A DNA stretch of 64,000 nt from a virus (IMGVR_UViG_3300023174_000075:1-64000), one strand, 5' to 3'. Counted from the stretch's first letter, positions 505-60,058 are shown. The notes: generated from the sequence alone by a model not told the origin. Numbers and translations are program-made.

Positions 505-512
505 ATAAATAT
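505..512 (-). promoter_or_regulatory. ATATTTAT junction motif
   Basis: The coding strand reads ATATTTATAATT directly before the ATG of the LysM-like gene. It is one copy of the 8-mer found at about two dozen gene junctions here; a promoter role is inferred. Confidence 0.4.
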
Positions 513-514
513 TA

Positions 515-2926
515 TTATTTAGTTTTAGTTCCCAATCCAAAGCTTCCTGTTATATATTGGGTACTATTACTACCTGTTAAGTAATTCTGTGCTATATGAG
601 ATACAAAGTTAGTTTCAGATTCTTTATTTGATAATCTATTTTTATTTCCTGTTTGAGAACCAATAGGTGTAAAGCTTAGTTGTACTTCAATAATGTGAGG
701 TAAAATTAATTTATCTTTATTACCATCAATATTAATTTCCCAAGGTGAGTCAGTTGATACTGTATAGGTTAATGAATCAAATATTCCTGGTTGGCTATTA
801 ATATAGTTTCCAACTGTCATTCTAACTAATGGACCCCTCATTAATCCTCCATCCTGACTTACATAGTCTGGCATTAAATTGCTCATTAAAGCATTTAATT
901 TTTGATACATAGGTTTCATTTCTCCTTCTGATAAAGCTGCTACTTTAAAACTTATATTTATTTTACGAGTAAATCCAGTATACACATAAAATTTTTCTCC
1001 TCTACCAGCATATTTTATATCAGTCCAATCTGCATTTACACTATCTGATAAATTTGTTATATATGCTCTAAATACCATATATACTGATTTAGTTGATGGA
1101 GATGTAGCATCAATAGCTTCAATCATAAACGGAACTAGATCTTTTATTCTATAAGGGTTTGAATTAATAGTTACTGAGTCCCAACTTGCTGCTTCTCCTG
1201 GTCTTGCTGAAAATATTGGAGTTAGGTTGATGGAATCTTGTCTTCCACTGCCAAAATTAGTTTCACGAGAAACTTTATCCCAACGAGAAGCACTAATGAC
1301 AACCGCTTCATTATATCCATTTTTATAAATTATAGAACCAAGTAAATCTGTTTTATCATCATAATTCCCTATAGCATTATATACATCATTATACCCATAT
1401 ATATTATTTCCTTTTCCTCTAATAGTGTTATATATTCCTATTAAAGGACTATAAACTGCATCTAATGTTTGAAGATCATATGTATCGTTATCAACTTGAT
1501 CATAATCAGCATATTGTCGAGTTTGTGCTAAAGAGGATGCTATGTCACTATTATCAAAATCATCAACTTCAGGATGTGATCCTATTTCATAGGTGGTGCT
1601 ACTTTTAGATACTCTTTTATTTGATCCTAAAGCATTTCCTATTAAACTGGAATTTTTTGGGTTTGGATCTATATAATCTAAAGAATGCCTATCATCTGAT
1701 TGTCCAAGTTGCACATATTTACCAGCATTTTCTCTACTATGTCTTAAAGATTCTTCTATTTTGGCTAAATCTTCAGTAAAAGAATATCTTCTAATAGATG
1801 TAAATCCAAGTCCATAGGTTGAACCAGGACCCGTTAAATAATCATCTATATTTGTTTTAGTAGAATCAGGTAATTTTAAATTTTTATATTTAATTCTATC
1901 ACCAAATAATCTTAGGGGAGATGAAAGAACAGATCCAAAAACCTCTAGTGCTCCGAATACACCCTCTTCTCCAAAAGCAAGTTCTTCAGCAGCTGCTGTA
2001 TTTGCTGTTATTAAGCGATTTGCTCTTCTAGTAGCTCTAGTTTGTCTACGAGCAGCTCTTCTACCTTTTCTATTTATTTTTTTAGTGCTTCTTCTTAACT
2101 TTCTAAGTATCTCACTTGCATTAACTGCCTCTCCTTCTCCATCTCCTAATTCAAATTTTTGTGTTAATCTTAATAATCTATTTGAGGGTGGTTCTAATGC
2201 ATTTACAAGTCCACTGCTGCTTAATTTATTATTTACTAATTCATTATTCCATTTAGTTATATCTTCATACTTATCATCATTAGAGATAGGTAATAAGCCA
2301 TGTCTTAAAATATGGCCACCAATATAATTAACAGGGATTTGAGCTATAGTGTTAATACCTAAATTATATAAGCGAGTAGGTTCTAAATATCCTCTAGTGG
2401 TAGTTCCTACTATATTTCCTAATTGACCTGTTAATATTGAATTACCTACTTCTTTTATAAGCTTCCATGGAGAATTAGAAAATGCCGATATTTTATATCG
2501 TTTCCATTCTAATCTAGGATTAGTCAATTGCATTGCTGCTTGACGAGCTAAAAATAAAGGACCTTTAGGTGTATCAGTAAAGAATTTAGCTATACGAATA
2601 GTATCTGTTATAGAAGCGTTAGTAGCTCCTATAGCACCTCCTCTAATAAAACCATCATCAATTTTTCCAAATTGATCAATAGCAATACCTGCTTTTAATA
2701 AAGCTTCATCTGCATTAAATTTATCTATTCCAAACCAACCGCCTACATTAGAAACACCATTAAGAAATTGTTTTAATAATGGATTTCTAAGAAGTAAATT
2801 TAATGATGGTGATATTGGATTATTTATATCCGTTTGAATATATGGTTGACTACTACTTCCTCCATTAGGACCATCATGTCCGTATTTAAGGGATTTAAGA
2901 TTTGTTTGTAGATTTATTAAAGGCAT
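515..2926 (-). CDS. Large baseplate/tail structural protein
   Basis: An 803-residue protein. The N-terminal 250 residues are Gly/Asn/Leu-rich. A very basic patch lies at about residues 280-305 (RKLRRSTKKINRKGRRAARR). The C-terminal 250 residues look like a compact beta domain: RIKDLVPFMIEAID, then FRAYITNLSDS, ending with HIIEVQLSFTPIGS. That C-terminal layout resembles tube-like domains of T4-type baseplate-tube initiator proteins (gp48/gp54), and the position two genes downstream of the tape measure fits. I cannot assign a T4 gene number from sequence alone. The basic patch is unusual for a baseplate protein and might bind nucleic acid or acidic partners. Confidence 0.55.
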   Translation of the reverse strand: MPLINLQTNLKSLKYGHDGPNGGSSSQPYIQTDINNPISPSLNLLLRNPLLKQFLNGVSNVGGWFGIDKFNADEALLKAGIAIDQFGKIDDGFIRGGAIGATNASITDTIRIAKFFTDTPKGPLFLARQAAMQLTNPRLEWKRYKISAFSNSPWKLIKEVGNSILTGQLGNIVGTTTRGYLEPTRLYNLGINTIAQIPVNYIGGHILRHGLLPISNDDKYEDITKWNNELVNNKLSSSGLVNALEPPSNRLLRLTQKFELGDGEGEAVNASEILRKLRRSTKKINRKGRRAARRQTRATRRANRLITANTAAAEELAFGEEGVFGALEVFGSVLSSPLRLFGDRIKYKNLKLPDSTKTNIDDYLTGPGSTYGLGFTSIRRYSFTEDLAKIEESLRHSRENAGKYVQLGQSDDRHSLDYIDPNPKNSSLIGNALGSNKRVSKSSTTYEIGSHPEVDDFDNSDIASSLAQTRQYADYDQVDNDTYDLQTLDAVYSPLIGIYNTIRGKGNNIYGYNDVYNAIGNYDDKTDLLGSIIYKNGYNEAVVISASRWDKVSRETNFGSGRQDSINLTPIFSARPGEAASWDSVTINSNPYRIKDLVPFMIEAIDATSPSTKSVYMVFRAYITNLSDSVNADWTDIKYAGRGEKFYVYTGFTRKINISFKVAALSEGEMKPMYQKLNALMSNLMPDYVSQDGGLMRGPLVRMTVGNYINSQPGIFDSLTYTVSTDSPWEINIDGNKDKLILPHIIEVQLSFTPIGSQTGNKNRLSNKESETNFVSHIAQNYLTGSNSTQYITGSFGLGTKTK

Positions 2927-2939
2927 CTAATAATTTTAA

Positions 2940-3302
2940 TTAGTATTGACCAGTTGATGGTCCTAAATCTGAATATTTCCTTCCAGCTTTTGATTTGTAT
3001 ATTTGAGTTACAACGCCAGTGCCATTTCCAGCAGCATAGTTGGTAGGAGCATTACTATCTAATTCATCAATTTGAGATGGGGTTGGTAATAATGTAAGGC
3101 CTTGGTTTGCTTGTCTATTAAAATCTATAACGCGTACATTAGGATCACCATCTACAGAATATGTATTTTGTAATTCACTAAGTTTTGGATCTAATGTATT
3201 AGCAGCTCCTAAGAAACCCCATCCTGGTTGGCTAGGGCGTGGATTTAATCCATTACCCTGTAAGCTATATAAACTATTGCTTAATTGATCTATTATTGCC
3301 AT
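2940..3302 (-). CDS. Small tail-region protein of unknown function
   Basis: A 120-residue soluble protein rich in Pro, Gly and Asn (GLNPRPSQPGWGFLGAANTL near residues 17-36), with no transmembrane segment or catalytic motif that I recognise. It lies between the tape measure and the large baseplate gene, so a minor tail or baseplate role is inferred from position only. The start ATG follows a junction motif by about 25 bases, which supports the chosen start. Confidence 0.5.
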   Translation of the reverse strand: MAIIDQLSNSLYSLQGNGLNPRPSQPGWGFLGAANTLDPKLSELQNTYSVDGDPNVRVIDFNRQANQGLTLLPTPSQIDELDSNAPTNYAAGNGTGVVTQIYKSKAGRKYSDLGPSTGQY

Positions 3303-3326
3303 GTTATTTTATTTTGGTTATTTGAT

Positions 3327-3334
3327 ATAAATAT
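3327..3334 (-). promoter_or_regulatory. ATATTTAT junction motif
   Basis: The coding strand reads ATATTTATATC, about 24 bases before the ATG of the 120-residue gene and just after the tape-measure stop. Promoter role inferred. Confidence 0.4.
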
Positions 3335-3341
3335 TTGTTTG

Positions 3342-5396
3342 TTATGCTAATTTATATGAATTTATACTTTGTTGAGTACCAGTTGATACTTGTCTTCCAA
3401 CTTGTGTACCAACTTTTTGACTATCCATATAAATGTCGTTTGATTTAGTTTTCATTGTTTGGTGTAAACTATCAATTGCTGCTACTAATGCGCTATTGTC
3501 TCCACCACTTCTTTTTCCACCACCTAAATTAGTACCTGCTACTATTGTGTCATTATCATTAAATGCTGTGATGCTACCTTTATCAAGTAACATACGTTGA
3601 CCGTATCCTGGAGATATAACGTCATCTCCTTTTGATAACATAGATGTAAATCCTACAAGTGCGGCTGCTGCTACTGCTGCTGCTATACCAAATCCTATAA
3701 TAGGTATTGAAGCTGCGGATTTAGCCATTGTTAAAGCAGCCTCTACTGCAGTTTGTTGTGCTGCTTTTCTTTTTGCTGCAAGGTCAAGAAGGGTTATACT
3801 TAATGAGTATACTTGTCTTGCTATGTACACTGCCATAATAGCTGCTAAACCTTGTGCTGAATTAAGCATTGTGGCCATTGCTGAGGCTAGTTTTCCAAAA
3901 GCTCCTTCTGCCATTCCACCAACAGTAGCTTCTAATTGCATCATGGCATTATTAAATTTTTCTTGAATAGATTGTTGTTCTTTTTGTTTATCAAGATATT
4001 GATCTAATGCTAACCCTGATTTTTCAAAATCTTCTAATTGGGTTTTATTTAATTTAGCGGCTTCATCTCCATATTTGTTAATAGCTTTTTGTTGCATTAA
4101 CATTTCAGACATTTCATCTCTACTTAATCCAAATGCTTTTGCTAATGATGTTTGAGCAATAACATTCATATTTTGATATTCTTCTAACGACCCTACCTGA
4201 TCTGCTATCTCTCTAGTTAGATCTAATTGGTTACCAGTTAATGCTGCTTCTCTAGCTTTCTCTAAATTAATTTTCCTTCCAGTTATTAATTCAGCTTCTA
4301 ATTCATTTTCAATTGATGATTCAAAATCTAATAATGAATCTCCAATTTTATTTACTTGTTCTAAGCTGGATCCTAATTTTTTAGCTTCAACTACAGCTTG
4401 AGCTATTGCTTTGGGATTACCTTGAAATTTAACTAATATACCAGCACTTAATTTACTAATACTAGATAATAATTCTTTATCACTAATATTAATTCTATTA
4501 GCTTGTTGAGCATAAAAAGCACCTTTACGTAAATCAGATACATATTCTCTTGTGGATTTTCCTGAAGCGGCTGATAGTGTTGTTAATTTTCCTGCTTCAT
4601 CTGCTGATAACCCTATTATTTCTGTTAATTTTGAAAAATTTTCTAATTGTTCTGCGCTAAATTGGGCTTGGAATCCTAATTGTTCTGTTAATTCACCTTG
4701 TGCTTTACTTAATCTTAAAGCATTAGCGTAACCCTCTTTTGATGCTCTAGAATAAGCATCAAAGCTATTATACATTTCAGCTGCAGCATCTCTGCTAATA
4801 CCCATGGATTTACCCATGCCTGTTATAGCAGTATCTGTTTTTTTAGCAGCATTTAATACAAATGTAAATATAGCGGATAAGGGTCCTAGTAAATCATTAT
4901 ATAAAGACTTTAATTTTTTAAGTCTACTACCTAACATTTTATCTATTTCCCCTTGTTGTTTCTTTTCTTTTGTTATTTTATCTTCTTCTTCAGCAATTTG
5001 TACTAATTTTCTATATTGATCTTCAAGTGATTGGCTTATTTGCATTTCAGCCCTTGCTTGGTCAAATTTAAGTTTAGCTGTCTCTAATGCTTTTTGATTA
5101 CTTTTTGATTGAGTTTGAACGGATTTTGCTAAGGCTTTAGTATAACTTTCTTCAGCTATTTTTCTCTTTATTAAAAGTACCTCATTATCATCAGCTAACT
5201 TATTTAATTTTTTAGTAATAGATTCAGCATCTTCTAGAGGATCAGATAGTTTTCTAGCTTCAACAGTAGCTTTTGCAAACCCACCTGCTAAATTCTTCCC
5301 CAATAAATCTCCAGATTCAATTATTCGTTGATTAATTCTATCCAATTCGGCATTGAATTGATCTAGTTGTTGTTGGGTGTCTTGTGATGTTGCCAT
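3342..5396 (-). CDS. Tape measure-like tail protein
   Basis: A 684-residue protein with the build of a tail tape measure. Long charged helical and coiled-coil stretches rich in Gln/Lys/Glu fill residues 1-160. Helical segments alternate with Ala/Gly-rich parts through the middle. Strongly hydrophobic segments follow at about residues 505-590 (LAAIMAVYIARQVYSLSI and an Ala-rich helix), then a Gly/Ser-rich C-terminus. Tape measures set tail length and pass into the host envelope on infection. Its place directly downstream of the tube and the frameshifting chaperone-like gene is the classic order tube, chaperone, tape measure. T4 gp29 (590 residues) is the functional counterpart; sequence-level homology cannot be shown here. 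Confidence 0.75.
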   Translation of the reverse strand: MATSQDTQQQLDQFNAELDRINQRIIESGDLLGKNLAGGFAKATVEARKLSDPLEDAESITKKLNKLADDNEVLLIKRKIAEESYTKALAKSVQTQSKSNQKALETAKLKFDQARAEMQISQSLEDQYRKLVQIAEEEDKITKEKKQQGEIDKMLGSRLKKLKSLYNDLLGPLSAIFTFVLNAAKKTDTAITGMGKSMGISRDAAAEMYNSFDAYSRASKEGYANALRLSKAQGELTEQLGFQAQFSAEQLENFSKLTEIIGLSADEAGKLTTLSAASGKSTREYVSDLRKGAFYAQQANRINISDKELLSSISKLSAGILVKFQGNPKAIAQAVVEAKKLGSSLEQVNKIGDSLLDFESSIENELEAELITGRKINLEKAREAALTGNQLDLTREIADQVGSLEEYQNMNVIAQTSLAKAFGLSRDEMSEMLMQQKAINKYGDEAAKLNKTQLEDFEKSGLALDQYLDKQKEQQSIQEKFNNAMMQLEATVGGMAEGAFGKLASAMATMLNSAQGLAAIMAVYIARQVYSLSITLLDLAAKRKAAQQTAVEAALTMAKSAASIPIIGFGIAAAVAAAALVGFTSMLSKGDDVISPGYGQRMLLDKGSITAFNDNDTIVAGTNLGGGKRSGGDNSALVAAIDSLHQTMKTKSNDIYMDSQKVGTQVGRQVSTGTQQSINSYKLA

Positions 5397-5414
5397 TAAT
5401 ACAATATTGTGTAT

Positions 5415-5422
5415 ATAAATAT
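5415..5422 (-). promoter_or_regulatory. ATATTTAT junction motif before the tape measure
   Basis: The coding strand reads ATATTTATATAC, two bases after the T-tract of the terminator hairpin and about 18 bases before the tape-measure ATG. The terminator-then-motif order supports a promoter. Confidence 0.5.
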
Positions 5423-5423
5423 C

Positions 5424-5446
5424 AAAAGCGCCTATTTTTTAGGCGC
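5424..5446 (-). terminator. Rho-independent terminator after the chaperone frames
   Basis: On the minus strand a perfect 7-bp stem GCGCCTA / TAGGCGC with an AAAAA loop is followed by TTTT. It overlaps the stop codon of the frameshift extension and precedes the tape-measure junction motif. Confidence 0.75.
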
Positions 5447-5695
5447 CTTTGCAGTATATGTTGGTTGAGGAGCTATGTTCGGACGTGCTACTTCACTTTT
5501 ATTTTTTAACGTATTATTTTGTTTTTCTATCTCTTCATTTTGCTTGTTATAATGTTCCTTCATCAAATTAAACGTAGTTCGACGTAACCATAAGGGCATA
5601 CTATATACGGTTTCCCAATCGTACCCACCATTACCATGAAATACTATTTCATGTATTTGTTTGAATAGATGTGGTCTATACTCCGGAGTCAGGCC
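5432..5695 (-). CDS. Frameshift extension of the gp26-like protein (tail-assembly chaperone, long form)
   Basis: Eighty-seven codons open in the +1 (equivalently -2) frame relative to the gp26-like gene. They begin GLTPEYRPHLFKQIHEIVFH, continue with GNGGYDWETVYSMPLWLRR, and end in a Lys/Gln/Pro-rich tail. The frame is open back to a stop at 5705-5707, and its first ATG is codon 34, after the most protein-like part. Independent translation is therefore unlikely. The 0-frame and this frame overlap on a run of seven T (coding strand). Fusion would give about 332 residues, 245 from the 0-frame. The position between tube and tape measure matches the programmed-frameshift chaperones known in many phages. 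The frame itself is seen; its expression is inferred. Confidence 0.7.
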   Translation of the reverse strand, partial: GLTPEYRPHLFKQIHEIVFHGNGGYDWETVYSMPLWLRRTTFNLMKEHYNKQNEEIEKQNNTLKNKSEVARPNIAPQPTYTAKAPKK

Positions 5696-6431
5696 AAAAA
5701 AAGTTTAATGAAATTGGGACTGTTATACCCTCCCCTGTATAACTTTCATCTTCTGGAATGAATTTCATTTCAACGTCTGGTTGAATACTATTATAATATT
5801 CACGTAATGCTCTAGCATCAGGTGCTAATAGGAAACCATCTACAAAATCACGAATTGATTTTAATTCACGATCACTATTGATAGAAGTAATTATATATTT
5901 TAAACGAGTAGTAACATCGTATGAGCCATTTGGATTTACTTTTGTTAATCCTTTAATTTCAGCATCAATTTTCTTTTCATCACCGTGTGTTAATAATTTA
6001 AATGTTACTGTATTACCTGATTTAGGTAAATCAAAGGTAAAATCATTACCTTTTTTAAATAATGATTCATCAATTTTCTTTTCTTCTAATTTAGATAAAT
6101 CAACAGTTGCCTCTAACTCTTTTCCACGGCCATCAGTGTATTTAAACTGATATTCAGCTCCATATCCTAAAATACGTGCTGAAATTAATATTGCATTTTT
6201 ATCACCAATTAATAAATCATCATAATTAAATGGTGTTACAATTAATGACTGCAATAATTTATCAATTACAGTGCCTTGGCGAATGAAATTGCTATTAGTA
6301 AGGATATCTTCTTCCTTAGCTGTCATATACTTCATTTCAATTTCACCTTTAGATAGTGGTGATTCTTTTGGATACAGTAAACCTTTGGAGGGTAACGAAA
6401 CGACTTCTGTTGGTAACTTTAATTCTGCCAT
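5676..6431 (-). CDS. 26: gp26-like baseplate/tail assembly protein (short form of chaperone)
   Basis: A 251-residue protein beginning MAELKLPTEVVSLPSKGLLY, with GEIEMKYMTAKEEDIL at about residues 29-44 and IVTPFNYDDLLIGDKNAI near 65-82. This SKG-x-Y plus K-Y-M/L-T-x-K-E-E-D-I pattern is typical of the T4 gp26-type baseplate protein family found in T4-like phages. T4 gp26 (208 residues) is a baseplate hub component or assembly factor. Here the gene lies between tube and tape measure and ends NFFWPDSGV on a T7 run that allows a shift into an 87-codon extension. This makes it a good candidate for the tail-assembly chaperone pair. The family call is firm; the chaperone role is inferred. Confidence 0.75.
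   Translation of the reverse strand: MAELKLPTEVVSLPSKGLLYPKESPLSKGEIEMKYMTAKEEDILTNSNFIRQGTVIDKLLQSLIVTPFNYDDLLIGDKNAILISARILGYGAEYQFKYTDGRGKELEATVDLSKLEEKKIDESLFKKGNDFTFDLPKSGNTVTFKLLTHGDEKKIDAEIKGLTKVNPNGSYDVTTRLKYIITSINSDRELKSIRDFVDGFLLAPDARALREYYNSIQPDVEMKFIPEDESYTGEGITVPISLNFFWPDSGV
5694..5702 (-). other. Candidate programmed frameshift site
   Basis: The coding strand reads AAC TTT TTT TGG in the gp26 frame. A P-site Phe tRNA on TTT can move one base forward to another TTT, giving GGC as the next codon and entering the 87-codon frame. A -2 slip on the same T7 run reaches the same frame. The -1 frame stops after two codons (TTG GCC TGA), so -1 is excluded. Confidence 0.6.
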
Positions 6432-6460
6432 AAACTTGTTTTATTTTATTTTGTTCGTAT

Positions 6461-6468
6461 ATAAATAT
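6461..6468 (-). promoter_or_regulatory. ATATTTAT junction motif
   Basis: The coding strand reads ATATATTTATATAC about 29 bases before the gp26-like ATG, in the gap after the three-repeat tail protein. Promoter role inferred. Confidence 0.42.
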
Positions 6469-6480
6469 ATAAAAAGATAA

Positions 6481-7443
6481 CTAGATGTAAGCACTTATAA
6501 AATCTGAGTAAGTATTTGTTGCTGAATATACTTGATTAAATTTAGATACTGGTTTACCTTCTGTTGCAAAATACCCTCTAACTGGTGTTGCTCCGTTTGT
6601 TGTTATAGGATAAATTGTTGGGTCTTTTTGTTGATTATACGGAATACCACCATTTACTCCTGGTTCTTCTGTATCCAAATCAGTCATGGAAAATGTATTC
6701 TTTCCATTACTTCTATTTCTAGTAAATCTACTTTCACCTTTAATAGGATATGCATCTAAATAAGTATCTCCAGGAAACCACACTTGAGTAAATTGGATAG
6801 CAGGACCCGGATTTGATAATAAATTAGGTGTACCTGTTGCTAATGGAGGATAGTTTGTTGTTATGTCCTGTATTGGAGAAGAAAGTCGTTCAACATCAAA
6901 ATCGGTAATGTCTAATGTATTTTTTCCACGACCTAAATCCTCAGTAAATCTACTATTTCCAGCTATAGAATATCTATCTAGATACTGTTGGTCTGGGAAG
7001 AAAGGTTGTGAAAATCGTTGTGGGTATGATGGATTAGCATATAGTGTTGGGGTACCTGTTGTATATATTCCATATGTTGTAGAAATATCATCACTATAAA
7101 ACCCATTAGGACCATCATTTTCAACATCAAAATTAGTAATGTTAAATGTGGTTATCCCACGACCTAAATCCTCAGTAAATCTGCTATTTCCATCATAATA
7201 TATATCTAAATATTGTTCATAAGGAAACCAACGTTGAAAAAATCGATTAGCATGACCTGGGTTTGAATATATTGTGGGGGTACCTGTTGTATATTGTGGA
7301 TAGCCAGTTGATGTATCATTAGTTGGGGGAACAGTATATATATAATTACTATCCTCTAAATCTAGACTTGTTTTATCAAAAGATGCTAACAGTCCTAAAT
7401 TAGTAGTAAATGAAGGTACATTTAAATTAGGTAAAAAAGCCAT
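6481..7443 (-). CDS. Three-repeat tail protein of unknown function
   Basis: A 320-residue protein made largely of three tandem copies of a module of about 58 residues, at roughly 50-108, 126-184 and 201-259, with a period near 75. Each copy has TTGTP or ATGTP, then a hydrophobic-Asn-Pro pair, an aromatic-rich FFP or WFP turn, Q/T-YLD, GNSRFTEDLGRG or a variant, and a closing T/N-FDVE-like strand. The third copy is the most diverged. It sits between the tube and the gp26-like chaperone gene, where T4 has no equivalent. A tail-decorating or tube-associated role is inferred from position; I do not recognise the family. Confidence 0.55.
   Translation of the reverse strand: MAFLPNLNVPSFTTNLGLLASFDKTSLDLEDSNYIYTVPPTNDTSTGYPQYTTGTPTIYSNPGHANRFFQRWFPYEQYLDIYYDGNSRFTEDLGRGITTFNITNFDVENDGPNGFYSDDISTTYGIYTTGTPTLYANPSYPQRFSQPFFPDQQYLDRYSIAGNSRFTEDLGRGKNTLDITDFDVERLSSPIQDITTNYPPLATGTPNLLSNPGPAIQFTQVWFPGDTYLDAYPIKGESRFTRNRSNGKNTFSMTDLDTEEPGVNGGIPYNQQKDPTIYPITTNGATPVRGYFATEGKPVSKFNQVYSATNTYSDFISAYI
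6667..7299 (-). repeat. Three tandem protein-coding repeats
   Basis: Three copies with a period of about 225 bases, each encoding TGTP...YLD...SRFT...N/T-FDVE. Copies 1 and 2 share SRFTEDLGRG exactly; copy 3 reads SRFTRNRSNG. This is divergence by amino-acid change within one gene, not a DNA satellite. Confidence 0.75.
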
Positions 7444-7461: not shown

Positions 7462-7469
7462 ATAAATAT
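7462..7469 (-). promoter_or_regulatory. ATATTTAT junction motif
   Basis: The coding strand reads CTTTATATTTATATAT directly after the T-rich tail of the terminator hairpin and about 18 bases before the ATG of the three-repeat gene. Confidence 0.5.
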
Positions 7470-7470: not shown

Positions 7471-7498
7471 AAGAAAAGCGCCTGTTATTAACAGACGC
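7471..7498 (-). terminator. Rho-independent terminator after the tail tube gene
   Basis: On the minus strand the stem GCGTCTGTT / AACAGGCGC (one G-T pair) has a 3-base loop and is followed by TTTTCTTT. It lies about 27 bases past the tube stop, giving the very abundant tube mRNA its own end. Confidence 0.75.
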
Positions 7499-7524
7499 TT
7501 CCTTTTTATAATTATGAAGTATTC

Positions 7525-8010
7525 TTAGAAGTTTAGGATACAATAATCCATAGCAATTGTCATTGAAATACTAACAGCTGAGTCAGCACTCCAATCGTAA
7601 TCACCAAAAGTTGCTGTTTTAACATAAGCACCTTTAATAATCCATTCACTAACAATATCACCTACTGGACCTAAAACGTTCATTGTGATATCTTTTTTAT
7701 AAAAATCAGAATAACCATCACGGCCTGTTACTGATTCATGAGCCAAACGAGCCCATTCCATTACTGATTGAGCACCTGATGGAGTAACGGGATCGTATAA
7801 TTCTAAGCTCATATCATTCCATTTTACCTTACCTTTTACTTTACGGTAAACGTTGATATGATCTAAAATTACTTCACCAGCTTCAAAGCCAGGAGCTGCA
7901 GCTTTCTTAATTAGGTAAGCTGGGATACCATCTATATACATAATAAACCTATTTTGAACTTTTGGTTCAAAAGCGGTAAACATTATTTCATTTGGATTTA
8001 ATACGGCCAT
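7525..8010 (-). CDS. 19: Tail tube protein (gp19-like)
   Basis: A 161-residue protein, almost the length of T4 gp19 (163). It begins MAVLNPNEIMFTAFEPKVQN, then FIMYIDGIPAYLIKKAAAPG, and contains VYRKVKGKVKWNDMSLELYDPV, a typical T4-type tube core. Tube monomers stack as hexamer rings through which DNA passes. It directly follows the sheath gene, as in T4 (18 then 19), and is bounded by a junction motif upstream and a strong terminator downstream, consistent with very high expression. The start is set by the motif spacing and the family-like N-terminus. Confidence 0.9.
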   Translation of the reverse strand: MAVLNPNEIMFTAFEPKVQNRFIMYIDGIPAYLIKKAAAPGFEAGEVILDHINVYRKVKGKVKWNDMSLELYDPVTPSGAQSVMEWARLAHESVTGRDGYSDFYKKDITMNVLGPVGDIVSEWIIKGAYVKTATFGDYDWSADSAVSISMTIAMDYCILNF

Positions 8011-8036: not shown

Positions 8037-8044
8037 ATAAATAT
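8037..8044 (-). promoter_or_regulatory. ATATTTAT junction motif before the tube gene
   Basis: The coding strand reads ATATATTTATTGAC about 26 bases before the tube ATG, in the sheath-tube gap. Promoter role inferred. Confidence 0.45.
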
Positions 8045-8060: not shown

Positions 8061-9767
8061 TTATGCAGGGAATGTAGCGCCAGTTGGAAGGATATTGAAG
8101 TTTAAGATAATGAATTCAGCCGTTTTAGTTGGTTGAATATAAATTTGACCTACTAATTGGTTACGATCTACTACATCAGGAGTATTGTTTGAATCATCCA
8201 TTACTACTTTGTAAGCATATAAACCTTGACGTTGTACTACTGAACTTAAGTATGGGTTAACTTGTGATAAGAATCTATTACGAGTTACTGTTGTATTTTG
8301 TTCGAATACTAAACCACGAGAAACACCACCTATAAATCCTTTTAATGCGATCAATAAACGACGAACGTTTACGCGATCTAAAGATGTTGGTTTACGTTGT
8401 AATGTCTTTTGACCCCAAACACATACTCCAGTTCCTGGGAATGTTGCTAATGGGTTAACATTTGCTAGGTATAATGTATCTCTATCTGATTGTTGTAATC
8501 TTCTTTCAGCACGGATAACTGATGGAATACCACCTCTATTCAAACCTGCTGGTGCGAACCATTCAGCGCCTACTTGGTCGTTAAATGCTAATACACCGCC
8601 GATAACAGTTGATGGAGGACACCATACAGTCTTACCTAAATTACTTGAGAATAATTGAACCCAAGGCCAATATGTTGCTGCATAGTTACTTGAAGAACCG
8701 CCTGCTGCTGAAGTTGCTGCTGAAACTGATTGACCATAAACTGTAGCATCTGTGATTGCAATTGCATCACCTCTACCTTCTGCTGTAGCTATCATATTAT
8801 CATCAGCACCCGATCCTAAAGCAACACCTGGGGCTAATAATACATTGTATGAATATTCATCTGCATTTGATAATAGATTAAATGCTAAATTATAATCAGC
8901 TGGTTGGAAACCTTGAATATTTGATAATGAAATATTTTCATTCATTAATTTAGGTAATGCAGTATCAATAGCACCACCACTAAATGAACCACCATATGAT
9001 CCACTACCCGTAGTTGGTAAAGTTCCAGCATATTGAACAGTTCTGTAGTTACCATTATTGTCAATAGAATCTACGTTTGGTGATGTTACTGAAGCGACAC
9101 GAACATATTGAGAAGCATTTGGATAAGTACCATCATATGTTACATATCCATTAGCTACATCGTATTTTGGTTTTAAATCACCAATAACACGAGATACATA
9201 GTTTGGTAATTGAGGATCTAAACTCATGTTAGCCCATGTTTCTAAAATATTTTTTGTTGATTGATTATCGTCACCACGACGAACCACAATAGAGAATGTA
9301 CCTAAAATTGGATTAACATTAGTTACTTCCCAACGTACATTATAAGCAGATCCATTAGCTAAAGCGCCATTAGACATGCTAGAGGTATTATTCATTTTAT
9401 CACCCCAGTCTAATGTTTCAAGTACAAGTTGAGTTGTACTACCACTAGTTACATTTGAGGTAGCATATGTATTAATATTTGCTGTACCATTAATGATTCT
9501 AGTTACTAATAATGTTTGACCGCCATTGTTAAAATATTCCTTAGCCGCCATTGAAGTTAAATATTCAAAGTAGTAACTACCACTTTTAAATATATCACCA
9601 AATAGTGATAAATATTGACTATAAGTTGTAACGTATGTTGGTATATACGGACGACCACCAACTGTAGGGCCTACGATAGCGGCACCAAGGGCTGGTGGAG
9701 CTTGCGTATATGTACTTTGGTCTGATTCAATCTGGAATACACCAGGAGATAGAATTACTTCTGCCAT
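8061..9767 (-). CDS. 18: Contractile tail sheath protein (gp18-like)
   Basis: A 568-residue protein beginning MAEVILSPGVFQIESDQSTY, with PPALGAAIVGPTVGGRPYIPT near residues 24-44. It ends with the sheath C-terminal domain: QLVGQIYIQPTKTAEFIIL followed by NFNILPTGA. The internal WCPPSTVIGGVLAFND and VNVRRLLIALKGFI segments are also typical of T4-type sheath. T4 gp18 is 659 residues, so one of the outer variable domains is probably smaller here. The sheath surrounds the tube and contracts on infection. The gene has its own junction motif about 45 bases upstream and is followed by the tube gene. Confidence 0.93.
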   Translation of the reverse strand: MAEVILSPGVFQIESDQSTYTQAPPALGAAIVGPTVGGRPYIPTYVTTYSQYLSLFGDIFKSGSYYFEYLTSMAAKEYFNNGGQTLLVTRIINGTANINTYATSNVTSGSTTQLVLETLDWGDKMNNTSSMSNGALANGSAYNVRWEVTNVNPILGTFSIVVRRGDDNQSTKNILETWANMSLDPQLPNYVSRVIGDLKPKYDVANGYVTYDGTYPNASQYVRVASVTSPNVDSIDNNGNYRTVQYAGTLPTTGSGSYGGSFSGGAIDTALPKLMNENISLSNIQGFQPADYNLAFNLLSNADEYSYNVLLAPGVALGSGADDNMIATAEGRGDAIAITDATVYGQSVSAATSAAGGSSSNYAATYWPWVQLFSSNLGKTVWCPPSTVIGGVLAFNDQVGAEWFAPAGLNRGGIPSVIRAERRLQQSDRDTLYLANVNPLATFPGTGVCVWGQKTLQRKPTSLDRVNVRRLLIALKGFIGGVSRGLVFEQNTTVTRNRFLSQVNPYLSSVVQRQGLYAYKVVMDDSNNTPDVVDRNQLVGQIYIQPTKTAEFIILNFNILPTGATFPA

Positions 9768-9812: not shown

Positions 9813-9820
9813 ATAAATAT
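9813..9820 (-). promoter_or_regulatory. ATATTTAT junction motif before the sheath gene
   Basis: The coding strand reads ATATTTATTATTAGG about 45 bases before the sheath ATG, in a 91-base gap that holds nothing else I can recognise. Confidence 0.42.
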
Positions 9821-12612: not shown

Positions 12613-12909
12613 TTAATCACACACTCCTGTACTCGTTGCTGTATTACCGGTTAGTATGAAATAATCTTGTCCTGGGTTATTAGGATTAGATACCTGACTA
12701 TATGTTGTTGGGATTGTTAATTCTATGTTTGTGTATAGTATTGAACCTATACCAAATATTGGTGATGCAGTGTAAACAGTAACATCCGCTCCTAGAGAAC
12801 AAACATTACCATTGGGTGATACACTAAAGGCATATGATTGTTTAGCACTATCTACTGTAATACTAGTGCTTGCTGTAATAGTACCTTGATTTCCTATTTG
12901 TATTGCCAT
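12613..12909 (-). CDS. Small fibre-associated protein of unknown function
   Basis: A 98-residue protein rich in Thr, Ser, Ile and Gly (MAIQIGNQGTITASTSITVD), predicted all-beta, with three Cys residues and NPNNPGQDYFILTGN near the end. It lies between two fibre-like genes and ends close to the next start. Probably a virion surface or fibre accessory protein; this rests on composition and position. Confidence 0.5.
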   Translation of the reverse strand: MAIQIGNQGTITASTSITVDSAKQSYAFSVSPNGNVCSLGADVTVYTASPIFGIGSILYTNIELTIPTTYSQVSNPNNPGQDYFILTGNTATSTGVCD

Positions 12910-12947: not shown

Positions 12948-12955
12948 ATAAATAT
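12948..12955 (-). promoter_or_regulatory. ATATTTAT junction motif
   Basis: The coding strand reads AATATATTTATTATTGAAC about 38 bases before the 98-residue gene, right after the stop of the large fibre-like gene. Confidence 0.42.
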
Positions 12956-20632: not shown

Positions 20633-20640
20633 ATAAATAT
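20633..20640 (-). promoter_or_regulatory. ATATTTAT junction motif
   Basis: The coding strand reads GTATATTTATACGTG about 22 bases before the 675-residue neck candidate and just after the PhoH stop. Confidence 0.42.
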
Positions 20641-21350: not shown

Positions 21351-21358
21351 ATAAATAT
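21351..21358 (-). promoter_or_regulatory. ATATTTAT junction motif before phoH
   Basis: The coding strand reads TTAATATTTATAAGTAACC about 21 bases before the phoH ATG, after the stop of the C1q-like gene. Confidence 0.42.
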
Positions 21359-22120: not shown

Positions 22121-22128
22121 ATAAATAT
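22121..22128 (-). promoter_or_regulatory. ATATTTAT junction motif after the capsid terminator
   Basis: The coding strand reads TTCATATTTATATTAGAT and then ATG. It lies a few bases after the capsid-gene terminator and only 7 bases before the start codon, so a transcript from here would have almost no leader. Confidence 0.5.
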
Positions 22129-22130: not shown

Positions 22131-22162
22131 ATAAAAGAACCCAGGCTTACGGGCCTGGGTTC
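22131..22162 (-). terminator. Rho-independent terminator after the major capsid gene
   Basis: On the minus strand a perfect 10-bp stem GAACCCAGGC / GCCTGGGTTC has a 6-base loop and is followed by TTTTATTC. It is the strongest hairpin in the window and closes the scaffold-capsid unit. Confidence 0.85.
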
Positions 22163-22196
22163 AAAGTTATAATACTAAGACTATAACGGAGTTATA

Positions 22197-25014: not shown

Positions 25015-25040
25015 ATGGATAGCTATTGTAGGCTATCCAT
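25015..25040 (-). terminator. Hairpin in the scaffold leader (terminator or 5' stabiliser)
   Basis: On the minus strand the stem ATGGATAGC / GCTATCCAT (9 bp) has an 8-base loop and is followed by TTTTTATCC. It could end the upstream protease transcript. But an ATATTTAT motif overlaps its 5' edge, so in a transcript from that motif it would sit at the 5' end of the scaffold-capsid mRNA instead. The 155-base gap 24920-25074 is the longest non-coding stretch in the window. Confidence 0.6.
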
Positions 25041-25046
25041 AAATAT
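25039..25046 (-). promoter_or_regulatory. ATATTTAT motif before the scaffold-capsid unit
   Basis: The coding strand reads ACATATATTTATGGATAGCC, after the stop of the 203-residue gene and directly before the hairpin; about 120 bases of leader separate it from the scaffold ATG. Confidence 0.45.
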
Positions 25047-29721: not shown

Positions 29722-29729
29722 ATAAATAT
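29722..29729 (-). promoter_or_regulatory. ATATTTAT junction motif
   Basis: The coding strand reads CTACATATTTATTGGTAG about 21 bases before the 284-residue gene, after the portal stop. Confidence 0.42.
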
Positions 29730-31645: not shown

Positions 31646-31653
31646 ATAAATAT
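31646..31653 (-). promoter_or_regulatory. ATATTTAT junction motif before the portal gene
   Basis: The coding strand reads AAATATTTATTGATAT about 19 bases before the portal ATG, after the terminase stop. Confidence 0.42.
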
Positions 31654-31660
31654 TTATCAT

Positions 31661-33274: not shown

Positions 33275-33282
33275 ATAAATAT
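33275..33282 (-). promoter_or_regulatory. ATATTTAT junction motif before the terminase gene
   Basis: The coding strand reads TTTTTTATATATTTATATAC, directly after the T-tract of the terminator and about 21 bases before the terminase ATG. Confidence 0.5.
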
Positions 33283-33284: not shown

Positions 33285-33315
33285 AAAAAAGCCCTAACCT
33301 TACGGGATTAGAGCT
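33285..33315 (-). terminator. Rho-independent terminator upstream of the terminase gene
   Basis: On the minus strand the stem AGCTCTAA / TTAGGGCT (one T-G pair) has a 10-base loop and is followed by TTTTT. It closes the transcript of the 70-residue gene. Confidence 0.75.
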
Positions 33316-33365
33316 TGCACCTATGGTCTAGATAGGCAGTCCTAGGTAGCAGGACGATTATTTTA

Positions 33366-35317: not shown

Positions 35318-35345
35318 TGTTTTTAGTTCGTTTAGTGTGATATCC

Positions 35346-35353
35346 ATAAATAT
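35346..35353 (-). promoter_or_regulatory. ATATTTAT motif overlapping a candidate start
   Basis: The coding strand reads CTAATATTTATGGATATC: the motif's last bases form an ATG. If the motif is a promoter, translation must start at the later ATG (35317). Confidence 0.42.
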
Positions 35354-38015: not shown

Positions 38016-38262
38016 TCTTTTTTGATTTAAAGCGTTTAATTACTTGTTTCAACATTTCAGCTTCTTTCATTGTCGCCTTTGCTTTTGGAGCAGGATTAAC
38101 ATTAGGATTTCCTAATGGACGACGTGGTTTCTTTTCAGCTGGTTTGCCTGGTGCTACTGCAGGACCTGGTGTTTCTCTTGGTTTAGAGGGTGCAGGAGCA
38201 TTTTCATTCAATTCTTGATTAATAATACGGCGTATAGTTTCGCGTAATTGTTGTTTAGTCAT
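38008..38262 (-). CDS. Small protein with cargo-like N-terminus
   Basis: An 84-residue protein, MTKQQLRETIRRIINQELNE, with an amphipathic start ending LNE|N, then a Pro/Ala/Lys linker (PAPSKPRETPGPAVAPG) and a basic end. It has the same plan as the other small tagged proteins: helical tag, cut site, disordered basic body. The upstream junction holds an ATATTTAT motif and the displaced oxidoreductase fragment. Confidence 0.5.
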   Translation of the reverse strand: MTKQQLRETIRRIINQELNENAPAPSKPRETPGPAVAPGKPAEKKPRRPLGNPNVNPAPKAKATMKEAEMLKQVIKRFKSKKNA

Positions 38263-38277: not shown

Positions 38278-38285
38278 ATAAATAT
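38278..38285 (-). promoter_or_regulatory. ATATTTAT junction motif
   Basis: The coding strand reads GGAATATTTATTGAC about 15 bases before the 84-residue gene. It sits at the end of the relic oxidoreductase homology, consistent with the old gene junction. Confidence 0.42.
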
Positions 38286-38843: not shown

Positions 38844-38851
38844 ATAAATAT
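38844..38851 (-). promoter_or_regulatory. ATATTTAT junction motif
   Basis: The coding strand reads AAATATTTATTAAT and then ATG of the 55-residue gene; a transcript from here would be leaderless or nearly so. Confidence 0.42.
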
Positions 38852-39511: not shown

Positions 39512-39519
39512 ATAAATAT
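39512..39519 (-). promoter_or_regulatory. ATATTTAT junction motif before the homing endonuclease
   Basis: The coding strand reads TTATATATTTATTAT about 15 bases before the endonuclease ATG. Confidence 0.42.
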
Positions 39520-43701: not shown

Positions 43702-44241
43702 TTATTTTTTTACTACTTTTTTAAGAATAGCACCAGCTACTTTCTTACCAGCTTCTTCTGAACCATATTGTTTAGCTGCTTTCTTAGCAATTTTTTCAAA
43801 TCCTTTACCTGGTTTGCCAATATCAGTACCTTTTTTAAAACGAGATTCATCTACTATTTTTTCTTGTCCAGCTTCAGGAACAAGACCCATCATTTCTTTA
43901 ATCTTATTCTTTTCAGCTGAGATTTTATCTTCAAGTGCTTTGATTTGTTCGTCAATACTTGCTTCTAATGCAACACCACCTGCTTTAATTTTATCTAATT
44001 CTTTAGCAAATTTAGCTAAATTAGCAAATTCAACTTCAGTTGATGTTGTTTTTTCAGCAAATTTAGCAGCCATTAATTCATCTTTCATTGTTTTCAATGC
44101 AGCTAACTCTTTTTTAAGATCAACTAACTTACCAGAGCTTTTTGGAAGACCTGCTTCTTTTTTCTTTGGTTCTTTATCTTTTGTTTCTTTTGCTTCGTTT
44201 ATTAAACTGCGTACGAATAGACGTAATGCGAAATTGTTCAT
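43702..44241 (-). CDS. Tagged coiled-coil, Lys-rich protein
   Basis: A 179-residue protein, MNNFALRLFVRSLINEAKET, with INE|A at residues 16/17. Long Lys/Glu-rich helices form a likely coiled coil (LVDLKKELAALKTMKDELMA; SIDEQIKALEDKISAEKNKI). The basic end GSEEAGKKVAGAILKKVVKK suggests DNA contact. This is the plan of T4 internal proteins: tag, cut, basic helical body. The gene is preceded by a junction motif. Confidence 0.55.
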   Translation of the reverse strand: MNNFALRLFVRSLINEAKETKDKEPKKKEAGLPKSSGKLVDLKKELAALKTMKDELMAAKFAEKTTSTEVEFANLAKFAKELDKIKAGGVALEASIDEQIKALEDKISAEKNKIKEMMGLVPEAGQEKIVDESRFKKGTDIGKPGKGFEKIAKKAAKQYGSEEAGKKVAGAILKKVVKK

Positions 44242-44261: not shown

Positions 44262-44269
44262 ATAAATAT
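44262..44269 (-). promoter_or_regulatory. ATATTTAT junction motif
   Basis: The coding strand reads AATATTTATACATATAAAC, overlapping the end of the 872-residue gene's stop and 20 bases before the 179-residue gene. Confidence 0.42.
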
Positions 44270-51566: not shown

Positions 51567-51851
51567 TTACTTCTTTAATTTAATATTTTCAGTGGATAAG
51601 AAATCAACTTTAACACGTAGTTCTGCTACTTCAGATGTTAATTTCAATACTAAATTACGTAATTCATCTTTTTCTTTAGCTGATGCTTCTAATAGAGCTT
51701 CTAATTTAGAGATACGATCTTTGCAGTCATGACGAATAAAATCATCATCACGTTCTCTATGTATTGCTCTTTTTTCATAATAGCGAAAAGCTGTAGTACC
51801 ACCTAAAACTGTTATTGCTGTGATTAATACTGACCAAATGTTACTATCCAT
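51567..51851 (-). CDS. Membrane-anchored coiled-coil protein
   Basis: A 94-residue protein with one N-terminal hydrophobic segment (SNIWSVLITAITVLGGTTAF) and a long coiled coil (DRISKLEALLEASAKEKDEL; LKLTSEVAELRVKVDFLSTE). This topology is shared by i-spanins and some holin-associated proteins. There is no tag. Located between a tagged gene and a junction motif. Lysis role possible. Confidence 0.5.
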   Translation of the reverse strand: MDSNIWSVLITAITVLGGTTAFRYYEKRAIHRERDDDFIRHDCKDRISKLEALLEASAKEKDELRNLVLKLTSEVAELRVKVDFLSTENIKLKK

Positions 51852-51884: not shown

Positions 51885-51892
51885 ATAAATAT
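51885..51892 (-). promoter_or_regulatory. ATATTTAT junction motif
   Basis: The coding strand reads AATATTTATTGGTAAT immediately after the stop of the 193-residue gene and about 33 bases before the membrane coiled-coil gene. Confidence 0.42.
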
Positions 51893-52953: not shown

Positions 52954-54366
52954 TTATTGATATATTTCTTCGTTTTGTTTGCCGAATTTTCTTAATAATA
53001 CACCTGCTTGCGCATTTGCTTCATTTTCAATTTCACTACCCGTCTCACCACTATTATAATCAATTCTACCATCCTCAGCTTGCTTGCGATGTACTAACTC
53101 ATGAGCTAATGTACGTAATAAATCGGCCATGTTACGATTTTTAACATACAACCATATTTTATCATTATTAGGATCAAATGAACCAAATGAATGATTTGAT
53201 TTAGCCATATTATTATCTCTTGACAATGTAAGAGATGTTGGCGGTTTTTGTATTCCTAATTCGTCAATAGCAAAAGCAATAAATTTCTTTAATAATTTAT
53301 TATCGTTTGCTGTATTTAAACCTTCCCCAAGATCAATGGGTTGATGTAATTGTTTAGTTTGTAGATTTAATGTGCCTTGTAATACAGTAGGAATTGAACC
53401 TAAAGCTTTATATAAAGATAATACAACTTCTCCACCTACCAAATAATACTTATCTTGAGCATAACATAATACAAGAGGTAACGGCATATCCTTACCAGCT
53501 TTAATTTGATCAATGTATGGTTTTGGGTTAATACCTAATTTTAAAGCATGTTGGATAGCATCATCTAGTGTTTTCATTTTATATGACTTGCTATTTTCTA
53601 ATTTAGACCATATATCATCATTTAATACTGTTTCCTCTCCACCATTAAAAGCATATTCCATATCCTCTATTGGAATATTAAATACAGCAGATGCTTTTTC
53701 TATTTTAGCACGATTTTGTGTTATGTAGTCTTGATAAGCATCATCATCAAAATTAATTGGAGGTGATTCTTTTAATGGCTCTTCTGTAGGTGTTTCGGCA
53801 GGAGTTTCTATTGGTGGTGTTTCTGTTGATTTTTCTTCTGGTTTATTATTCAATGCATTTAAAAAATCATCTACAGACACTCCATCGGGAAGATATTTTG
53901 CAATTTCTTCCTCATTCTTTTGAGCTAAGGCCATACGTAAGTTAGTTGCACTAACACCTTCAATAGCACCAGCATCAAATACTTTTACGTTAGGGTATTT
54001 CTCAATACTTTTATAGCGATCCATTTCACCTTTACCAAATGCTACTAAAAAATTAGTATCAGGATTATTTTTAACAACATCATATACTTCCTTAACAGGA
54101 CTAGAATCAGCAGATACTTTTACTTCAACTGAACCATTAAATTTATTTTTATATAGATCCCATACAGCAATACTTTCATCAGCAGTAACACCTTCACGTG
54201 TTTGAGGTGACACAAGTACTACTACTTGATCAGCAGCTTTTAATAATTTTTCAACAACATCAACATGTCCTTTATGAGGTGGTTTAAAGGCACCTGGGAA
54301 TAGTGCTATTGTTGGTTGATTTTCTGCTTCTAATAATATATTAGCTAAGTATTGGCCTAAATTCAT
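52954..54366 (-). CDS. Tagged fusion: nucleotidyltransferase, ParB-like segment, HExxH peptidase-like end
   Basis: A 470-residue protein that seems to join three modules. Residues 1-13, MNLGQYLANILLE|A, are a targeting-like tag. Residues 17-150 are a cytidylyltransferase-type domain: FPGAFKPPHKGHVDVVEKLL with the HxGH site (31-34) and GVSATNLRMAL (137-147), the (I/V)SxTxxR-type motif. Residues about 265-335 resemble a ParB/sulfiredoxin-like fold (MPLPLVLCYAQDKYYLVGGE). Residues 400-455 hold AHELVHRKQAEDG (HELVH 422-426) with downstream Glu residues (445-449), a zinc-peptidase pattern. Pro/Glu linkers separate the modules. I do not know another phage protein with this combination. Roles are inferred. 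Confidence 0.65.
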   Translation of the reverse strand: MNLGQYLANILLEAENQPTIALFPGAFKPPHKGHVDVVEKLLKAADQVVVLVSPQTREGVTADESIAVWDLYKNKFNGSVEVKVSADSSPVKEVYDVVKNNPDTNFLVAFGKGEMDRYKSIEKYPNVKVFDAGAIEGVSATNLRMALAQKNEEEIAKYLPDGVSVDDFLNALNNKPEEKSTETPPIETPAETPTEEPLKESPPINFDDDAYQDYITQNRAKIEKASAVFNIPIEDMEYAFNGGEETVLNDDIWSKLENSKSYKMKTLDDAIQHALKLGINPKPYIDQIKAGKDMPLPLVLCYAQDKYYLVGGEVVLSLYKALGSIPTVLQGTLNLQTKQLHQPIDLGEGLNTANDNKLLKKFIAFAIDELGIQKPPTSLTLSRDNNMAKSNHSFGSFDPNNDKIWLYVKNRNMADLLRTLAHELVHRKQAEDGRIDYNSGETGSEIENEANAQAGVLLRKFGKQNEEIYQ

Positions 54367-55118
54367 TTTATAAAATTATTTATTTTCGATTTAGCATTTT
54401 TAATAGATGTAAATTGTGGTATTATTTCTACTAAATGAGCTATCATGTCATTTAAAGCTTGATTTTCTTGTTCTTTTTTAGCGCGTTCGTCTGCTGTATA
54501 AACCTTACCACTACCTTTTACTGTTTGAAAAAATAATCGTTTAGCAGTTTCAGGATTATATTCAGCTTTACCTTCAGGATCATTATTTACTAATATAAAT
54601 TTATCACCAAAAGCTTTTTTATACGTATCTATATTATTATTAACTCCAGCCCATGTTTTTAATACAATACCAGGAGGTAATGCTCTATCCCTATCAGCAT
54701 TACGTTTTAATGATGTATAAGGGGAAACCCAAATCATTAACATCATTGTATCATATCCTAATGCTTCTAATTCAGATTTTTTCTTAAGTAATGGTTTACT
54801 AGCGGCACCTGTACCATCTATTACTATATTATTTTTATCAGCAGATAGTTGTGCAAATTTTTCTTTAGTAGTCTTTTGAGCTCTACCCATCATTTGTGCT
54901 GCTTGGGATAATTGATCTTGACTAAAATCAGAAATTTTAGTACCTAATCCAGCTGCTTTAAGTAGTTCTTCATAAGCATCATCTACGTTAATTACAGTTA
55001 AATCTGATGGTATAATTTGCTTAGTTACAAATGTTTTACCAGAGCCAGCAGGACCAGCTAAAAATATAGCTTTTGGTCGAGCTGATGCTTCTAATAATAA
55101 GTTTAATAATTTAATCAT
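54363..55118 (-). CDS. Tagged zeta-toxin/polynucleotide-kinase-like P-loop kinase
   Basis: A 251-residue protein with a perfect tag: MIKLLNLLLEASARPKAIFL, LE|A at 10/11. Right after it comes Walker A GPAGSGKT (22-29), then VINVDDAYEELLKAAGLG (possible catalytic Asp), IVIDGTGAASKPLLKKK, and an Arg-rich lid (KRNADRDRALPPG). This matches the zeta-toxin/PNK-like kinase layout. In T4, a packaged enzyme (Alt) acts on the host on entry; a packaged kinase could do the same. Whether it phosphorylates sugar nucleotides, RNA/DNA ends or something else is open. It overlaps the fusion gene by 4 bases. Confidence 0.7.
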   Translation of the reverse strand: MIKLLNLLLEASARPKAIFLAGPAGSGKTFVTKQIIPSDLTVINVDDAYEELLKAAGLGTKISDFSQDQLSQAAQMMGRAQKTTKEKFAQLSADKNNIVIDGTGAASKPLLKKKSELEALGYDTMMLMIWVSPYTSLKRNADRDRALPPGIVLKTWAGVNNNIDTYKKAFGDKFILVNNDPEGKAEYNPETAKRLFFQTVKGSGKVYTADERAKKEQENQALNDMIAHLVEIIPQFTSIKNAKSKINNFIK

Positions 55119-55127
55119 AATATATCA

Positions 55128-55135
55128 ATAAATAT
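55128..55135 (-). promoter_or_regulatory. ATATTTAT junction motif
   Basis: The coding strand reads AATATATTTATTGATAT about 9 bases before the kinase ATG, right after the stop of the RecB-like nuclease gene. Confidence 0.42.
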
Positions 55136-55136
55136 A

Positions 55137-56860: not shown

Positions 56861-56869
56861 TATACGAAA

Positions 56870-57310: not shown

Positions 57311-57320
57311 AAAAACTGTT

Positions 57321-58337: not shown

Positions 58338-58340
58338 GCA

Positions 58341-59342: not shown

Positions 59343-59360
59343 ATTATATTTTTATTTTAA

Positions 59361-60026
59361 TTAGGTTGTTGATACTTTTTGAATGTTAATAGGAATAGTA
59401 ATTCTAGCACCACTATCTCTACCAATTACAGTAATTGTTGTAGATAATGTAGTTAATGATGTACCAAATAATGTATTAACTGTTGTTCCAGTTAAAGTAA
59501 ATGATGTACCAATTGTTGATTTAGATAATACAGTACCTGTAGTAGTATTTAAATTTTGATTACCAACTGTAGTAGTAGTAATACCTGTACCTTGGAAAGA
59601 TGATACTAATCTAATATCAGTAATTGTGGCTACGTATCCGTTAGCTTCAAATGTACTTGTAGCACCCAAATAATTTAATGTTTGTGGTGTTAATGTTAAT
59701 GAAGCACCTTGTTTGAGGGTAATGATATTGTAACCCAAACTAATAACTGGTAGACGGGATGTACCACGTGGTAATGTTGTTAGTTTATAGCGCATTATTT
59801 GTGTATCATTAGGAAATGCTTGAATTACAGGCATATTCTCAATTGCTTCACCATAAAATGCTGATCCTGATGGGTGAGTTGGATTATACATTGTATAATC
59901 TACTTCATCATCAGCTAAAGAAAATTGTGTAATTTGAAAGGATCCGTCATTGCGAGCTAATAACTCACGACCTTTCGTAGTTAGAAGTGCATCTACTGTT
60001 ACCGTTGTAGGATTTAATATTGCCAT
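59361..60026 (-). CDS. Structural protein of the tail surface cluster
   Basis: A 221-residue protein, MAILNPTTVTVDALLTTKGR, then NDGSFQITQFSLADDEVDYT and GTSRLPVISLGYNIITLKQG. The N-terminal 95 residues look like a conserved domain (KGRELLARNDG...FSLADDEVDY) seen in tail clusters of large phages; the C-terminal half is Thr/Ser-rich and beta-like. It precedes the two paralogous surface proteins and has its own junction motif. A baseplate or fibre-base role is inferred. Confidence 0.6.
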   Translation of the reverse strand: MAILNPTTVTVDALLTTKGRELLARNDGSFQITQFSLADDEVDYTMYNPTHPSGSAFYGEAIENMPVIQAFPNDTQIMRYKLTTLPRGTSRLPVISLGYNIITLKQGASLTLTPQTLNYLGATSTFEANGYVATITDIRLVSSFQGTGITTTTVGNQNLNTTTGTVLSKSTIGTSFTLTGTTVNTLFGTSLTTLSTTITVIGRDSGARITIPINIQKVSTT

Positions 60027-60050
60027 TTTTTATTGTTTATTGTATATACT

Positions 60051-60058
60051 ATAAATAT
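60051..60058 (-). promoter_or_regulatory. ATATTTAT junction motif
   Basis: The coding strand reads CACATATTTATAGTATATAC about 24 bases before the 221-residue gene, after the stop of the leucine-rich-repeat gene. Confidence 0.42.

Follow-up and report, generated by a model that had tools for sequence, protein, structure and literature searches.

The late promoters of phage T4 have the core TATAAATA, which is read by gp55 together with gp33 and the gp45 sliding clamp, and they have no −35 element. The T4 late promoter box has been placed at −13 to −6 (PMC2988020), and the late promoter of the cyanophage S-PM2 is NATAAATA (PMC2984593). On the side of the hosts considered here, the −7 element of F. 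johnsoniae reads T-12 A-11 H H T-8 T-7 T-6 G-5 (PMC6847099).

We analyzed the first 64 kb (the window) of an incomplete viral contig of 124,427 bases, in which nearly all genes are on the minus strand. Matches to T4-type families include the large terminase, portal, tail sheath, tail tube, and major head protein. Judged by the terminase, Flavobacterium phage immuto is the named phage nearest to this virus (54% identical), followed by Microcystis phage Mel-JY01 (50%) and the uncultured jumbo phage LR756508 (40%). By analogy with immuto, the host of this virus may be of the Flavobacterium type.

An earlier note on the window had listed 24 sites of the 8-mer ATATTTAT in most nonoverlapping gene junctions, with about eight copies inside genes and none between overlapping genes. 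Using the criterion that at least 4 of the 8 bases should lie between genes for a copy to be intergenic, we arrived at nearly the same picture: on the coding (minus) strand of the window, we counted 31 copies, 23 between and 8 within genes, and on the plus strand 5. The exact 8-mer is present in 19 of the 26 junctions of 20 bases or more and in 0 of the 27 overlapping junctions of the window. Across the whole contig, 39 of the 52 coding-strand copies are intergenic, compared with 2.6 on average, and never more than 10, when the intergenic DNA was shuffled 300 times with its dinucleotides kept. This enrichment, 15-fold over the shuffles, is confined to a single orientation, as 3 intergenic copies in the reverse orientation versus 4.1 in the shuffles correspond to chance. 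The observation of the earlier note is confirmed. The sites in the window and the intrinsic terminators next to them are the following:

505..512, minus strand: ATATTTAT; start codon 4 nt downstream; predicted leaderless gene 195-500
3327..3334, minus strand: ATATTTAT; upstream of gene 2940-3302
5415..5422, minus strand: ATATTTAT; directly after a terminator; upstream of gene 3342-5396
5423..5451, minus strand: intrinsic terminator, 12-bp stem; directly before the motif at 5415..5422
6461..6468, minus strand: ATATTTAT; upstream of gene 5676-6431
7462..7469, minus strand: ATATTTAT; after a terminator; upstream of gene 6481-7443
7474..7502, minus strand: intrinsic terminator, 13-bp stem; just before the motif at 7462..7469
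8037..8044, minus strand: ATATTTAT; upstream of tail tube gene 7525-8010
9813..9820, minus strand: ATATTTAT; upstream of tail sheath gene 8061-9767
12948..12955, minus strand: ATATTTAT; upstream of gene 12613-12909
20633..20640, minus strand: ATATTTAT; upstream of gene 18583-20610 (weak match: head-tail adaptor)
21351..21358, minus strand: ATATTTAT; upstream of phoH-like gene 20655-21329
22121..22128, minus strand: ATATTTAT; after a terminator; upstream of gene 21367-22113
22137..22162, minus strand: intrinsic terminator, 10-bp stem; before the motif at 22121..22128
25039..25046, minus strand: ATATTTAT; 9-bp hairpin and T tail (25040-25015) immediately after it, which is unusual
29722..29729, minus strand: ATATTTAT; upstream of gene 28846-29700
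31646..31653, minus strand: ATATTTAT; within palindrome ATAAATATTTAT (31646-31657); upstream of portal gene 29737-31626
33275..33282, minus strand: ATATTTAT; after a terminator; upstream of large terminase gene 31661-33253
33289..33316, minus strand: intrinsic terminator, 11-bp stem; before the putative terminase promoter
35346..35353, minus strand: ATATTTAT; overlaps the start of gene 34316-35347; may be chance (TATTT ATG)
38278..38285, minus strand: ATATTTAT; upstream of gene 38008-38262
38844..38851, minus strand: ATATTTAT; ATG 4 nt downstream; predicted leaderless short ORF
39512..39519, minus strand: ATATTTAT; upstream of homing endonuclease-like gene 38852-39496
44262..44269, minus strand: ATATTTAT; overlaps the stop codon of the preceding gene; upstream of gene 43702-44241
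51885..51892, minus strand: ATATTTAT; overlaps the stop codon of the preceding gene; upstream of gene 51567-51851
55128..55135, minus strand: ATATTTAT; upstream of gene 54363-55118
60051..60058, minus strand: ATATTTAT; upstream of gene 59361-60026

The four minus-strand terminators with the longest stems in the region of 1-40 kb end 0-9 nt before a ATATTTAT; most sites have no terminator. From the motif and hairpin at 25015-25046, a transcript of about 30 bases would result, which may be a small RNA or an attenuator. Single-base variants of ATATTTAT are rare, and a position-weight scan at one false positive per genome added just one inexact site, which together imply that recognition must be strict. 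The extension to (A/T)(T/G) described in the earlier note is real but weak, and the stronger flanking signal lies after the motif: a purine at +5, with T in most copies at +4.

This purine is the most regular feature of the flanks. The base at motif+5 is a purine at 38 of 39, 41 of 41, and 43 of 44 sites in the window contig and the whole contigs of two relatives, respectively, and at 34 of 35, 33 of 33, and 39 of 40 sites once leaderless sites are left out (binomial p of 5e-8, 3e-9, and 2e-9). With or without the leaderless sites, none of the other flanking positions, of 72 tested per genome, ranks above it. At the 39 sites, the base preceding it is mostly T. In immuto, the preferred core variant TATTTATA is followed by four bases and then a purine at 24 of 24 sites, placing the inferred start one base further. 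When T4 was handled in the same way, TATAAATA was followed by five bases and then a purine at 9 of 10 sites, which fits the known placement of the T4 box at −13 to −6. Based on these regularities, RNA synthesis probably starts at the motif+5 purine. Neither the 39 sites nor a set of 136 nonredundant sites has a strong upstream or −35 column; weak upstream traits are a preference for purines near −30/−29, where C is depleted, and a weak T near −24.

The distance from the motif to the start codon points to the same base. Because orthologous sites are not independent, we quote within-genome tests and, for spacing, the 136 nonredundant sites drawn from 160 related loci. In that set, the spacing is exactly 4 at 22 sites, all with ATG, while any other spacing from 0 to 10 occurs at most at 2 sites and is followed by a broad hump at 11-25. 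A spacing of 4, as at window sites 505 and 38844, places the A of the ATG on the predicted first RNA base. A fixed start site predicts such a gap, and the pattern indicates that in most cases the mRNA has either no leader or one of about 7 bases or more. It would be hard to obtain without an RNA start at motif+5, and the mRNAs are probably sometimes leaderless. Mel-JY01 (PP395634) has an annotated gene for ribosomal protein S21 (RpsU) at 22183-22410, which is of interest because leaderless or Shine-Dalgarno-free translation is expected.

The motif is shared across the lineage. In about 160 related viral loci, which the earlier note had suggested as a place to look, ATATTTAT is the most enriched intergenic 8-mer, with 310 intergenic copies in 80 terminase loci and 256 in 80 loci around homologues of the candidate sigma factor described below. 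It is also the top intergenic 8-mer in Mel-JY01, and it occurs 21 times versus once in reverse in immuto, beside the TATTTATA form. At the terminase junction, ATATTTAT is kept in nearly all aligned relatives, and there TATATATTTATATA is conserved while the terminators of the relatives differ in sequence. At the portal junction, ATATTTAT and the palindrome ATAAATATTTAT are kept in most relatives aligned; through the palindrome, the motif before the portal gene could fire both ways. The 74 reverse intergenic copies in the terminase loci were considered as a counterexample and rejected as such, since they fit this conserved palindrome. In LR756508 and RM378, a de novo motif search gave no clear late motif and ATATTTAT is not enriched, so that a drift of the motif is untraceable in those two. 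In the literature available without subscription, we found no earlier report of the motif or of immuto or Mel-JY01 promoters.

The small-gene region at 76-100 kb of the contig, outside the window, also has ATATTTAT sites, and "late" is therefore not exclusive. A second promoter-like class lies before small genes at 76.8-94.1 kb (e.g., 83827 and 86687; outside the window) and consists of GGCA, about 10-11 bases, and CGTATATTCACGTTAACCAAAAA; TAnnTTCA is enriched in that region (20 versus 4.0 expected). These are probably early promoters. In immuto (NC_055915), a further intergenic word is strongly enriched, e.g., TAGGTATCAATAATTAAAA, with TAGGTATC occurring 11 times between genes and 0 times in coding DNA; this word is likely the early promoter class of immuto.

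Taken on its enrichment, strand bias, start signature, spacing, and conservation, the best-supported reading of ATATTTAT is the one favored in the earlier note, a lineage-specific promoter on the coding strand. From these sequence patterns, we consider it very likely that the motif is the core of a phage late promoter placed like the T4 late −10 box. Late expression of the genes served would follow from their type, which includes tail sheath, tail tube, portal, and large terminase. The earlier note had also described the orientation as opposite to that of T4. This is correct for the strings as such; if the two are aligned by the inferred start, both point the same way. In this alignment, (T)ATATTTA and T4 TATAAATA both occupy −13 to −6 and agree at 6 of 8 bases, with the two central bases differing; because the register in immuto differs by one base, the alignment is suggestive and not proof. 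The T4 core TATAAATA itself occurs between genes at chance (4 versus 3.6 expected). As the sites do not follow the consensus TATAAATA/NATAAATA and the match to gp55 is weak (see below), we do not claim membership in the T4 late promoter family proper.

Several other explanations account for parts of these data. The motif could be the housekeeping promoter of a Bacteroidota host, i.e., TAnnTTTG at −12 to −5 with its last G changed, given that TATATTTA resembles TAnnTTTG and that the nearest named phage infects Flavobacterium. However, TAnnTTTG is not enriched between genes (6 versus 4.7, 5 versus 4.9, and 12 versus 7.5 expected), TATATTTG occurs 0, 0, and 1 times against 38-42 copies of ATATTTAT, no TTG is clearly enriched upstream, and, relative to the host element, ATATTTAT is shifted upstream by one base. 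With the TAnnTTTG and TATATTTG counts at chance or near zero, we rejected recognition by the host sigma-A; a housekeeping promoter of the host is unlikely. An AT-rich word might also arise by chance in intergenic DNA that is 73% AT, or from terminator tails, as several copies follow T runs. The dinucleotide shuffles and the single orientation refute this; moreover, terminators are missing from most sites, few single-base variants occur, and the motif is kept at orthologous junctions whose terminators differ, leaving chance with next to no credibility.

An element acting at the level of RNA, where the transcript is processed or where the 5' leader signals translation, would fit the position near start codons and the lack of Shine-Dalgarno sequences in Bacteroidota (PMC6847099), and an RNA cut at motif+5 would leave a similar signature; an endonuclease cutting at a fixed distance could thus mimic the purine signal that we take as support for a promoter. 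On the other hand, a spacing to the start codon of 4 to over 50 is ill-suited to a ribosome signal, four sites lie directly after terminators, where upstream transcripts should have ended, and the ATG of leaderless genes aligns with the base that is a purine elsewhere, all of which make an RNA-level function quite improbable. Recognition by a phage-encoded RNA polymerase has precedents in the fixed-start late motifs of phiKZ-like phages, such as AACA-N6-TA/G in AR9 (PMC5312081). A search of eight lineage records gave no match to a multisubunit polymerase with controls working, and the box, 8 bp long and located at −12 to −5, fits a sigma2 domain; a search for a single-subunit polymerase gave no match, but neither did its positive control. 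We regard a phage polymerase as very unlikely.

A late promoter of the kind favored here calls for a reader, and the sole match to sigma region 2 in the contig is a 260-residue protein encoded at 74500-75282 on the minus strand, outside the window. Homologues are present in 596 viral stretches; among 50,697 phage records, they are restricted to immuto isolates, Mel-JY01, and LR756508, and the profile extends to Rhodothermus phage RM378 (E 8e-7). In annotated phage records, they are labelled hypothetical. Matches to Pfam Sigma70_r2 are weak but recur among the homologues (19 of 47, best E 0.0054, under the curated cut-off), and 10 of 47 homologues match the PHROG "RNA polymerase sigma factor". 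With E 0.008, the immuto homologue, KNV73_gp118, hits the gp55 family, and this family was not found in the window contig. Profile comparisons with gp55 using hhalign were not significant (probability 0.4% and 2.8%), although the second alignment set region 2 on region 2. Searching the solved structures by sequence gave nothing relevant.

In the predicted structure (mean pLDDT of 74), residues 42-144 form a bundle resembling region 2, and a second helical domain spans 167-255. All Foldseek E-values for it were >0.4. In a second structural comparison, the best 37 rows were sigma factors or sigma-containing complexes, with Z 8.2 for sigma2 (2.7 Å over 91 residues) and Z 6.3 for the sigma-H C-terminal domain, values to be read with the reservation that helical proteins can trivially give Z scores of less than about 13; T4 gp55 was absent from this list. 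The protein is probably a sigma factor with a sigma2 and a sigma4-like domain. That it is the reader of ATATTTAT is likely but less secure; against it, LR756508 has a homologue with 42% identity, yet no enrichment of ATATTTAT. The gene of the 260-residue protein itself has no ATATTTAT upstream. Homologues of the gp45-like sliding clamp are found in five near relatives (E 2e-6 to 7e-9), making clamp-aided late transcription possible; none was found in the incomplete contig of the window or in immuto.

Together, these data are consistent with a model in which host core RNA polymerase with a phage-encoded sigma factor, the conserved 260-residue protein, would bind and open ATATTTAT, possibly helped by a sliding clamp as in T4. 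RNA would start on the purine of ATATTTAT-N3-Y-R, with R as +1 and the motif at −12 to −5. Most sites would yield a 5' leader of about 7-20 nt, and in roughly one-sixth of the sites RNA would begin with the A of the ATG, giving a leaderless mRNA. Sites after terminators and before virion genes would allow each late unit to be read on its own. More tentatively, and as a possibility that we do not favor, the immuto-like branch of the T4 superfamily may have its own late sigma factor with sigma2 and sigma4-like domains, a promoter alphabet unlike that of T4 or the host, and leaderless late mRNAs from the same signal, as an alternative and perhaps older gp55 system that still has sigma4.

A late promoter and a candidate reader are thus now proposed for a common, little-studied branch of T4-like viruses infecting aquatic bacteria, which comprises hundreds of contigs in the viral collection and whose hosts differ from E. 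coli in gene expression. For about 40 sites per genome, the proposal specifies the very base on which RNA would start. Motif and sigma factor may drift together, which would allow one to study how T4 late transcription evolved, including whether a sigma4 domain was gained or lost. What is new is probably a version of the late signal differing from that of T4, plus an unannotated shared protein that may read it.

Compared with known systems, the candidate reader resembles ECF sigma factors in its predicted sigma2 and sigma4-like domains and in its size, as these factors have about 200-260 residues; it differs in that its sequence match is under curated cut-offs and in that the promoters here lack a clear −35 element. 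With Bacteroidota sigma-A promoters (TTTG/TAnnTTTG), the motif shares the TA..TTT string and a start about 5 bases downstream but neither the terminal G nor the −33 element. The T4 late promoter is similar in having a single AT-only box of 8 bp, located about one turn ahead of the start (inferred here), no strong −35 element, a strict consensus, a purine start (predicted here), and a position before virion genes; the virion here is also T4-type, and relatives have clamp homologues. Unlike in T4, the core here is (T)ATATTTAT, with the central AA replaced by TT, leaderless spacing is frequent, and the probable reader has an added sigma4-like domain, the gp55 profile being without a match in this phage. 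The S-PM2 promoter NATAAATA has AAA at its center where the motif described here has TTT, and the two have in common a degenerate first base, the same place, and the same class of genes.
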